This document shows, one piece after another, positions 50,689 through 56,776 of a stretch of DNA of 64,000 nt. Within the stretch, counting starts at the first letter, position 1, and every line of letters begins with the position of its first letter. Source of the DNA: Sialis fuliginosa (Eukaryota > Arthropoda > Insecta > Megaloptera > Sialidae); contig OY540812.1 of NCBI GenBank assembly GCA_961205875.1, positions 12,338,001 through 12,402,000 of the forward strand. The letters run 5' to 3'. The notes beneath the pieces were generated by a model. The model was not told the DNA's origin, made no database searches, and saw nothing but the letters and a program-made list of their open reading frames with translations. The position numbers and the translations under genes are program-made.

Positions 50689-50715
50689 CTTATCGTCCTC
50701 TCCTTCGCTATCACA
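50689..50715 (-). CDS. tay: tay / AUTS2-family microexon C (9 codons)
   Basis: Microexon of 27 nt. The minus strand reads TCTTATTTTCAG, then TGTGATAGCGAAGGAGAGG and ACGATAAG, then the strong donor GTAAGTTT. Phase 0 gives CDSEGEDDK. Of the other frames, one hits a stop (TGA) and the third reads VIAKERTI, with no resemblance to the family. After exon B it completes GKGYICDSEGEDDK, equivalent to [15 protein letters not shown] in AUTS2. The acidic run could be a CK2-type phosphorylation patch; that is inference from composition only. It sits alone between a 5.1-kb and a 34.7-kb intron. It is also symmetric and could be a cassette exon. Confidence 0.82.
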
Positions 50716-51640
50716 CTGAAAATAAGAAAATAATATTTTATTTTAATTGTTCCATATATATCTAAATACTTAATAATTTTGCCATTGAATTAAAAAATGT
50801 TGAAAAGACGATAAAACAGATTTAAATGCAATGTTTCGAATTAAATTTTTTACTAAACAGAGATATATGTTTCTAAAACAAATAAGGAATTAAAACTATA
50901 TATATTGCATTATTATAATAGTCAACTAAAACACTCATTTCGTTTGACATAAACGAAAATTAAATAAAAGAAATACATGATACATTTGGAAAAGGAATTT
51001 AAAAAAAACATAAGGAAAATTTATAAAAGTAAAGAGAAGTAAACAGTACATCAAAAAGATCTCTTGATGCAAATAAAAACAATATAAAAACATTTTCACA
51101 AAAATGTTTTTATGTGTAGAGTAAATCTTTTTGTCAAAGAAAAGAACAAAGAAACTAATATGTATAAGTAAAATTCTTAATATAAAGAAGTGGTATGTAA
51201 TATATCGTTATACATACACCTATTCATTTAAAAAAGAGAAAGAAGAAAAACATTTATTAAGAAAGAGGGAGAAAAGAAGAAATACATTATTTCGCTCGCA
51301 GTTTCTCAAATTAATTTATCTTAATGTCAACATTTCTAATGGTGTAAAAACAGAGTAGCGGGTTTTATAAAATATATATAAATGTATAGACAAGAAATAA
51401 ATTATTTTCTTATTTCAGTATGTTCATGAACCATCAATTATTCGCCCATTAAGATAATGTCTTTACTGAACACAACTTTGTACAAATAAAAAAATGAAGA
51501 TAATTTTTTCAATATACATATTATTATATACAGTAGGTATATATGTTTTTGAACTTAAATAGTATAGGTATTAATATCGCTTAATAAGGTATAAAATTAT
51601 TTAAATAGGTATAGTATAGGTATGTATTTAGTGATTTTGC

Positions 51641-51690
51641 GTCGAGACACCCCGGAACTTTTAGCAAAAAAGTTCCGGGACTCGAGACAT
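51641..51690. repeat. Hairpin: inverted CCCCGGAACTTT repeat
   Basis: ACCCCGGAACTTTTAGC followed by AAAAAAGTTCCGGGACTC forms a stem of about 12 bp, with GTCGAGAC/GAGAC extensions. A related GAGTCCCGGGACTTTG occurs at 52699. Confidence 0.6.
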
Positions 51691-53332
51691 TCTGATTTAA
51701 AATGCGTTTAATACAATTTGTACATTTTATTTTTGAAAATAAAATTCTTATGGTTGAGAACCAGAAGATCTCTCCATTAAAAAATGATTTAGATTTTCCA
51801 ATCAACTAGAGTTAGAGAACGGACGCAAAAATTATATTTTTTGTATAAATCATTGCTGATGATAAAACCAACATCGACAAATAATTCTCAACAGCAGCAA
51901 TATTTATCACAAAAATCATAAATAGGATTTTTAAAATTCATTGATATATCTTAATCTTATTTTGCTAGGCAAAAATAAAATATTTACTTATATGTTTATT
52001 GTGGATGTGATTATGTTGTGTTATTAGTACAGGCAATGAAGGGAAAAATTGCCCTGTTTTTGGAACAAATTCGGAGTACGATGAAATTTGGTACCCATAT
52101 AGTACCCATAATAGTACGTCTGTATACAAAATTCCCCTTCCATAGGCCTTGTGGAAAAAAAATTACAGCCGTTTGAAGTTTAATTTAGTTTTTATTGAAT
52201 AACTTCAAGACAAATAAAGATACCGAGACGTTACATTAAAATTTTCAAAAATATTTGCTTTACAACTTTATTTCAAAATTTCTTCTAACGTGTCTATATA
52301 AATTGTTGAAAAATCGCCGTGAATCCGAAAACTAAGTGCATTTAATCAAAAAAATATATTTAAAAGGATTTTTGAGCTCTTAAAACTGATAATCGAGACA
52401 AATGCCTTATATAAATGTTGTAGAGAATAAAATTTTACAACTTTTTATGTAAGGTGCAACATTCGAAATGTAAATTTTCGTAAGATATTTCTTTTTTAAA
52501 TAGTAAAAAATATATATAATTTCATAAATAATAAAAAATATGTTAAAAAATATATCTTTTTAATTAAATTTGTTTTAGTACATAAATTAACGTGTTGATT
52601 TTTTAACACATACAATTATTATTATTATACCTTTATATAATATAAATATTTATCAAAATATTAAAATATTAAAATTTTATTGATGAGCAAAAAAGTCTTG
52701 AGTCCCGGGACTTTGAAAAAGCCGAGATTTCAGAATCTCTAATTTGTACATAACTTATAAAAAAAATTGTAAGTAGCAATGAATTGTTAAGGTGTGTATA
52801 CAGTATACACTGGAGTTCGCGAACTATTCTTCAATTAATAATCTGAGATTGTATATTTTAATATACGGATAATATAAAAGAAGAAAACTTGACTGGCATG
52901 CAGACGTAGTTAGGTATTTCTAAAGACATAATAATTACCAATTCCAGACCTGTGTTACAAGAAGTTTTCATTCGCCCCGCGTTGTAAATGTGACTGACAA
53001 ATAGCCCAGCCGATAAATCGGACAGGATTATTTATGCAACCAGTTATTTGTTCCATTTATCTTTTTAATTGATTGACGAATTCAGATCAGAATTCTTTCC
53101 AAGTCGCAAAGTTTTTTTCATCACATCAAAAAATTTGAATTAGTATTCTGTTTTGATCGCTAAGACATTCGAATGCTTTACAGATTATAAAAACAGGTTT
53201 TTAGTGATCGAGAGAATAGAAATGATTTCATTGTTGGCAGCTTAAAAAATGGAATGTTAAAGATGTTCATAAATAATGCTCTACTTTATAGTATAACATC
53301 AACTTATCATTGAATATGCAACAAGTTTAAAG

Positions 53333-55862: not shown

Positions 55863-55898
55863 GATATATCCCTTGCCGGAGCTGCATCGGCTGCTCGC
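55863..55898 (-). CDS. tay: tay / AUTS2-family microexon B (12 codons)
   Basis: Microexon of 36 nt between TTCTTTCACAG and GTGAGTACC, both good splice signals on the minus strand. In phase 0 it encodes ASSRCSSGKGYI. Joined after exon A it gives SRDRLSDASSRCSSGKGYI, which parallels RERLSD-SS...GTGYF in AUTS2. The Gly-Tyr-aromatic/aliphatic core is the conserved part. The other two frames are also open but do not fit the family. The preceding intron is 752 bp and the following one about 5.1 kb. Because the length divides by three and both ends are phase 0, skipping would keep the frame while deleting half of the conserved motif. The exon is too short to be found by open-reading-frame scanning. 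Confidence 0.8.
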
Positions 55899-56650
55899 CT
55901 GTGAAAGAACAAAAAACAAACCGGAGTTAGTAAAAACAAGTGCTAATGTATTTTGTTCAAGAAAAATGTGGATTTCCAACAAGATTCTATGAAGAATGGA
56001 GTGATAACAACTTGGTAATTTGTATTTGTGTACTTGTTATTAACTTCTTCACAAACATGGACGTGTTTTGATTTAGTTTTGTTCATCAGTGAAGTTAGTA
56101 ATATAAAGTGTTATAGTTACGGCATTATTATTTTTATTTGTTGTATTAATTTCAACTGTACAAGAGTAGCATTTTTATTAGACTATTATTCTATTTGTAA
56201 AACTTATCTACTTACAATGAAAATTTACTTATTCGATTATAGTGGCTTGTTTTATAATTATATTCATTTAATTAAAAAGAAAAAAAATAGTGACATTTGT
56301 CACAATTTTCGTTTTATTGTCATATGCGATCTACAGTCATATTACAATTTTCGGTGGCAAAGGAGAGTTGTTTGAGATAAAAGGGGGAAGCAATCTCCTA
56401 TCGATCATATGCCAGATATCATTACCACATTTTTTTAAAGAATATAAAACTCAAATTTATCAAAATTTAAAATTACCTTTCAGTTTTTTTTAATAAACAT
56501 TATAAAATCTAATTGTATTAATTTTTCAAATTAATAAAATCAGAATAATTTACTTGAACGGCCATACAATAAATTTTAACTTAATTTGCACTCTAATTGA
56601 AGGTCTCTTTATCCTTACATATATAACAGATAATACATATGTATACTTAC
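55899..56650 (-). other. tay intron A-B (752 bp)
   Basis: Canonical GT-AG intron between exons A and B. It is AT-rich. The longest open frame in it, on the plus strand at 56028-56375, is Tyr/Ile/Phe-rich with no recognisable domain and is treated as chance. No repeat with clear ends was seen. Confidence 0.75.
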
Positions 56651-56776
56651 ATCACTTAGCCGGTCTCGCGACGAGTCCGGGTCCCGAGGCGCCACCGAGG
56701 AACCGGTCAGCCTCTCGGACGCGCGTCCGCTGTCGTCGCTCGTACCCGCATCAGCGGCGTGCGTCAATAACAACCC
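56651..56776 (-). CDS. tay: tay bridge / AUTS2-family exon A (42 codons, partial gene)
   Basis: Internal coding exon. On the minus strand it follows TTGTTGCAG and ends at GTAAGTATAC, a near-consensus donor. Its 126 nt are open in phase 0 and encode 42 residues: GLLLTHAADAGTSDDSGR, then ASERLTGSSVAPRDPDS, then SRDRLSD. The segment is rich in Ser, Asp and Arg, hydrophilic and probably disordered. The last residues (SSRDRLSD) match the start of the AUTS2/FBRSL1 block SSRERLSD. It is far more GC- and CpG-rich than its surroundings, as expected for coding DNA here. Known of the family: AUTS2 is a nuclear protein that converts a PRC1 complex into an activator in neurons, and Drosophila Tay bridge affects brain development and dampens EGFR/ERK signalling. 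The start codon lies upstream, outside the window. The family call rests on reading this exon together with exons B and C. Confidence 0.82.

Follow-up and report, generated by a model that had tools for sequence, protein, structure and literature searches.

AUTS2-related proteins share eleven conserved regions, of which Region 3 comprises 42 residues (199-240) of the human protein and is encoded by human exons 3-6, which means that two whole human exons lie inside this short block (Sellers 2020, PMC7732068). According to the same comparison, each protostome species assessed carries one AUTS2-family gene. Identity to the human Region 3 amounts to 50% in the ant Camponotus and 22.2% in the fly protein Tay, and the proteins are 1259 residues long in the ant, approximately 1700 in Nematocera and 2486 in Drosophila (Tay). 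In the human gene, the introns between exons 1-7 measure 16-301 kb and those between exons 7-19 approximately 1-3 kb, and codons are split at the junctions of two exon blocs, 6-9 and 15-19 (PMC9008325). In the present study we analysed a 64,000-nucleotide stretch (hereafter the window) of the megalopteran insect Sialis fuliginosa, covering positions 12338001-12402000 of contig OY540812.1 (C4), with searches extended to the whole genome (392 Mb in 20 contigs). Its minus strand carries three exons, two of them microexons, which are almost certainly part of the insect's AUTS2-family gene, whose orthologues in human and fly are AUTS2 and tay bridge. This assessment covers the identity of the family gene, not the constitutive use of the exons. 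The gene itself was to be expected, and both the family and its split layout are largely known already.

A first-pass annotation had proposed three in-frame minus-strand exons, and re-reading of the coordinates returned the lengths, canonical splice sites and phases (0/0) it had given (Table 1). Each of the exons (numbered 3, 4 and 5 in the gene model described below) has a length divisible by three, is bounded by AG and GTRAGT, and has a stop in its own frame at most 150 nt away on either side. Their joined translation, ...DSSRDRLSD / ASSRCSSGKGYI / CDSEGEDDK, was likewise reproduced, with the C-terminal end of exon 3 forming the beginning of Region 3. Two upper limits for microexons, 51 nt and 30 nt, appear in abstracts of published work; the 36-nt exon 4 is a microexon under the former limit and not under the latter.

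Table 1. Coordinates of the exons and other features. Positions are those of the window unless preceded by a contig name; the intron length given is that of the intron following the exon.
Feature	Position	Strand	Exon length (nt)	Phase	Splice sites	Translation	Following intron
AUTS2-family gene, whole model	C4:12451580-12292509	minus
Exon 1			231				22 kb
Region 2 match	C4:12451451-12451335	minus
Exon 2			189				34 kb
Exon 3	56776-56651	minus	126	0/0	ttgcag/GGG..GAT/gtaagt	GLLLTHAADAGTSDDSGRASERLTGSSVAPRDPDSSRDRLSD	0.75 kb
Exon 4 (microexon)	55898-55863	minus	36	0/0	ttcacag/GCG..ATC/gtgagt	ASSRCSSGKGYI	5.1 kb
Exon 5 (microexon)	50715-50689	minus	27	0/0	ttttcag/TGT..AAG/gtaagt	CDSEGEDDK	91.5 kb
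G+C-rich islands in intron 5	18308-18834, 19416-19694, 28361-28737
Exon 5b (probable), between exons 5 and 6	15973-15767	minus	207	0/0		ESPHSDVESGG...AGGNTKEE
Exon 6			1217				56-565 nt (introns 6-13)
Exon 7	C4:12295355 (acceptor)	minus	344
Exon 8			194
Exon 9			162
Exon 10			36
Exon 11			250
Exon 12			463
Exon 13			222
Exon 14			184
Third candidate microexon	C4:12294265-12294230	minus	36	0/0		QPLGEPTKPKIL
PF15336 (Auts2) matches	C4:12293829-12293575, 12293449-12293183	minus
Tandem repeat	2631-2779
Downstream neighbours	C4:12278150-12281881	minus
Upstream neighbours	C4:12454088-12461869	minus
Upstream neighbours	C4:12467123-12471762	plus

The annotation had also seen a parallel to the N-terminal motif of AUTS2/FBRSL1, and this part of the claim was borne out by the surroundings of the exons. 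A genome search with the PF15336 (Auts2) profile returned two matches (E 1.1e-8 and 0.00175, both above the cut-off), located 95 kb downstream of exon 5 on the same strand. The Region 2 query, taken from a working version of the human protein sequence, returned a single match at E up to 10 (61% identity over query residues 3-40, E 0.00175), located 57 kb upstream of exon 3, also on the minus strand. The exon carrying this match (exon 1) has an ATG start after an in-frame stop, begins with MDNEVKQRNRRRKRAQR and reads MDNEVKQRNRRRKRAQRMQ...EEDIIDGFAILGFRTYEDLE. Both the Auts2 domain and the N-terminal Regions 1 and 2 (a basic run and the EEDIIDGFA block) of the family are present, and Region 3 follows Region 2 and precedes the proline-rich region. 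Among the returned matches, the Auts2 domain and the Region 1/2 exon were found at this locus only. Regular expressions written for Region 2 gave two chance matches on the opposite strand and did not detect exon 1.

Independent support for placing the gene in the AUTS2 family comes from this arrangement, i.e. PF15336 downstream and a Region 1/2 exon upstream on the same strand, together with an open gene model that passes through the three exons. The model consists of 14 exons and 3681 nt including the stop codon, and encodes 1226 residues with no internal stop. In a Pfam analysis of the whole protein, PF15336 aligned over positions 1-213 of its 218-position profile with 79.7 bits (cut-off 23 bits; E 4.1e-22); the only other entry was Laminin_G_3 (E 0.24, below the cut-off). 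A scan for exon 6 acceptors at which Region 3 would go on in phase yielded two candidates, of which GSDAGSVLFASTPSS at C4:12297137 opens an exon starting with GSDAGSVLF, a sequence resembling the human one at the end of Region 3; the other, at window position 23836, was rejected since it did not continue the block. The Region 8 block is present in model exon 11 (as judged by eye against human residues 645-666). The longest introns lie toward the 5' end; junctions 1/2 to 5/6 and 8/9 to 10/11 are of phase 0, and codons are split at junctions 6/7, 7/8, 11/12, 12/13 and 13/14. Exon 2 is the least certain of the N-terminal exons and was chosen by its phase, G+C content and position (right phase; top-ranked in G+C and length among the 31 candidates listed). 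Neither exon 1 nor exon 2, searched individually, had a match in Pfam, and the Tay-domain segment gave three weak matches in a PDB sequence search, the best being zinc transporter 7 (E 0.24).

Segments of this kind could also be produced by chance in an AT-rich intron, with a translation that merely looks AUTS2-like, and this explanation had to be weighed since well-sited microexon-like segments are not rare. We counted 23 open, frame-keeping segments of 24-60 nt with strong sites in 153,460 bases of the introns of this gene, i.e. approximately 0.15 per kb, or about one per 6.7 kb of intron. In the 64 kb of the minus strand of the window, four open candidates of these lengths have AG and GTRAG sites, two of 36 nt and two of 27 nt, and one of each length belongs to the chain described here. 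At such a frequency, the shape of a microexon is weak evidence, and we rejected it as a stand-alone argument. Exons 4 and 5 also gain no support from codon scores in their own frames. What speaks for the exons is the ordered match of the peptides: queried with human AUTS2 peptides (from the same working version), the minus strand of the window gave a chain score of 89, whereas the best of 200 first-order Markov resamples reached 13. Of six overlapping 64-kb flanking pieces, two contained no chain and the others scored -6 at best; on the plus strand of the window, no ordered chain was found. The ordered match is far beyond chance. Moreover, the flanks of the chain, ordered and on the same strand, are the sole Region 2 and Auts2-domain matches returned from the genome. 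Given the chain test and these two matches, a chance origin of the exons is hardly conceivable. An alignment of Region 3 (exons 3-6 without 5b) with human residues 199-240 scored 96, the best of 1000 shuffles scoring 56.

Another explanation is that the exons derive from a decayed or partial AUTS2 copy, with the working gene located elsewhere. Nothing was found that speaks for it. In the genome searches for PF15336, Region 2 and exon 3, scoring was confined to the best candidates, and a poor copy may have escaped them. Against this explanation, all three queries returned matches at this locus only (exon 3 found nothing except itself), and the coding model of 3681 nt is free of internal stops; we therefore regard a decayed copy as very improbable. 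The joined 28-residue peptide had no genome match at E <= 0.001, which is expected when the coding sequence is divided among three exons.

Several observations weigh against the assignment of the exons to an AUTS2-family gene. (i) The Region 2 match overshoots the donor of its exon by 15 bases, which include one TAG. (ii) The similarity of exon 2 to human exon 2 is not significant, with 55 of 1000 shuffles as good. (iii) The Region 3 peptide alone had no match in Pfam, and a PDB sequence search with it gave a single weak match (1wk1, a hypothetical protein, E 0.45), i.e. no solved relative. (iv) Codon scores, trained on 1100 codons from the model's own exons, were best in the expected frame for exons 2, 3 and 5b, but not for exons 4 and 5, whose 12 and 9 codons are few. 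(v) Introns 3 and 4 are short here, in contrast to 16-301 kb in the human gene. (vi) The residue comparison rests on a working version of the human AUTS2 sequence, of which two forms differing slightly within Region 2 were used. Codon usage as a whole proved to be of little use as evidence, the expected frame being also best in one of five other G+C-rich segments.

The plan of the gene agrees with that of the family: Region 3 is spread over four exons, the 5' junctions are of phase 0, and long 5' introns are followed by short 3' ones, with introns 3 and 4 short. The likeness to human AUTS2/FBRSL1 further includes the protein length (1259 residues in human) and the first junctions, which, from the reading of the exon blocs, also appear to lie at codon boundaries in human. 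The split-codon junctions of the insect gene may correspond to the two human blocs, and the intron positions may be identical to the human ones to the base. The differences concern the number of exons (19 in human, 14 or 15 here) and the CDS block, which lacks one residue relative to the human sequence. The regions themselves are not equally conserved. The first-pass annotation had taken each microexon to contain part of the most conserved core, and this did not hold: the mean identity of Region 3 is 54.6%, compared with 76.6% for Region 8, encoded by human exon 14 (Sellers 2020, Table 2). Against human AUTS2, the best-kept run within Region 3 is the end of exon 3 (7/8 residues), followed by exon 4 (5/12) and exon 5 (4/10 columns).

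The closest resemblance is to the ancestral, non-fly type of the protein (aAUTS2p), as in Camponotus floridanus, with which the S. fuliginosa gene shares a single locus found, a length of approximately 1250 residues, the Auts2 domain, and Regions 1, 2, 3, 5, 6, 7 and 8, visible by eye in matching order. It differs in that the Region 6 site reads APSY and lacks the PPxY motif, which is present in 18 of 21 aAUTS2p proteins (PMC7732068), and in a probable 69-residue exon (5b) that would split Region 3 if included. One PPLY lies elsewhere in the model protein, at residue 518. The protein length (1226 residues, or 1295 with exon 5b) fits this ancestral type and not the fly Tay subgroup, whose members reach approximately 1700-2500 residues in Diptera. 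The proposed orthology to tay bridge stands at the gene level, as one family gene was found in each protostome species assessed by Sellers 2020. Drosophila Tay shares the eleven regions of that study, but it is twice as long as the present protein and its Region 3 is only 22.2% identical to human.

Two side observations concern the splicing of the 3' part of the gene. A third candidate microexon (Table 1) is located outside the window between Regions 7 and 8, in a 642-nt gap in which approximately 0.1 such segments are expected at the intron rate. It sits at the place of human exons 12-13, for which Sellers 2020 (PMC7732068) lists no counterpart in aAUTS2p and Tay; the spacing of Regions 7 and 8 is 34 residues in human versus the 12-residue candidate microexon here. 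In model exon 7, the probable counterpart of human exon 8, the acceptor is a tandem CAGCAG (NAGNAG), whose alternative use would add or remove one serine. NAGNAG acceptors have been reported at exons 3, 8 and 15 of zebrafish auts2a (PMC5555464).

The first-pass annotation had spoken of four exons, while its coordinates covered three; a fourth exon on the same strand and in the same phase is, however, probably present in the window. This segment, exon 5b, has approximately 61% G+C inside the AT-rich intron 5, is open and has in-phase splice sites, and we consider it a probable exon, which may be the fourth one that had been meant. It had no match in Pfam and the genome search returned only itself. 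Its acceptor has a weak pyrimidine tract, with TGC at -31, -22, -11 and -5. If it is truly included, 69 residues are placed inside Region 3. A correspondence to human exon 6 was dropped: the score against human residues 226-300 was 28, and the best score (40) came from a glycine-rich run. Intron 5 also contains three G+C-rich islands, which have open frames on one strand or on both and a doubtful splice phase and are possibly internal promoters.

Exon 5b is possibly a cassette exon, and the same might be asked of its neighbours. Exons 4 and 5, together with 5b, could be regulated cassettes through which Region 3 is included or omitted, as might be the case in neurons; this variant keeps the assignment of the gene to the family. 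Because exons 2 to 5b are all of phase 0/0, any of them can be skipped in frame, and the weak acceptor of exon 5b with its four TGC triplets would suit such regulation, a UGC motif near the acceptor being tied to the control of microexons by Srrm proteins and their eMIC domain. By contrast, no TGC was found within 80 nt upstream of the acceptors of exons 4 and 5, the donors of both exons are strong and their pyrimidine tracts fair to good, and a branch-point-like CTAAC precedes the acceptor of exon 4 by 32 nt. The eMIC domain is known to switch neural microexons in flies and mammals (PMC8797185). On the strength of the donors, the CTAAC site and the lack of TGC, constitutive use of exons 4 and 5 is favoured and regulated use of the pair appears unlikely. 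A bolder proposal, which we regard as a long shot, is that exons 3-4-5, the two microexons included, form a module that predates the insect-vertebrate divergence and has retained its intron positions and phases since then, and whose in-frame exons (5b among them) turn Region 3 on or off, or break it up, in particular tissues.

If the exons are used constitutively, as we favour, splicing would join exons 3-4-5 to exon 6, directly or via 5b, and would thereby rebuild Region 3, which is short, acidic and rich in serine and belongs to the N-terminal part of a nuclear protein. These junctions are presumably used in RNA. Both SEGE in exon 5 and SDSD in human AUTS2 fit the consensus of an acidic CK2-type site, and Region 3 may therefore be a docking segment that is phosphorylated. 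Published analysis describes the AUTS2 family as mostly disordered. By analogy with its relatives, the protein may be a chromatin and signalling adaptor. Mammalian AUTS2 belongs to a variant PRC1 with PCGF3/5, brings in P300, and the complex recruits CK2, findings that come mostly from overexpression in HEK cells (PMC9008325), while Tay binds Erk and Mkp3, Erk mostly via its C-terminal part (PMC3861119).

The remaining observations concern the surroundings of the gene. The downstream neighbours on the minus strand (Table 1) are presumably UBE4A-like and NR2C2AP-like genes, and the upstream ones, on both strands, presumably encode a leucine-rich-repeat protein, a myosin and a dynein heavy chain, all judged by their translations. 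The window contains a 50-base unit in three perfect tandem copies; scans of the window with Rfam (at the gathering threshold) and for tRNA genes were empty. TTAGG telomere repeats were detected at five of seven examined contig ends (both ends of C4 and the starts of C2, C3 and C5), with none in the stretch of C1, which begins with N, or in the small contig C19. Contig C20 (15,590 bases) carries COX1 and is the mitochondrial genome.

No published treatment of the counterparts of exons 4 and 5 as AUTS2 microexons was found among the titles and abstract openings of open-licence papers, which is a weak negative. In S. fuliginosa and, according to published exon numbers, also in human, Region 3 is divided among four exons, which makes the microexon pair a candidate splicing unit of deep conservation, possibly an ancient one. 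Annotation based on open reading frames can lose the 21 residues that exons 4 and 5 encode, in a gene whose human counterpart, AUTS2, is linked to autism and intellectual disability.

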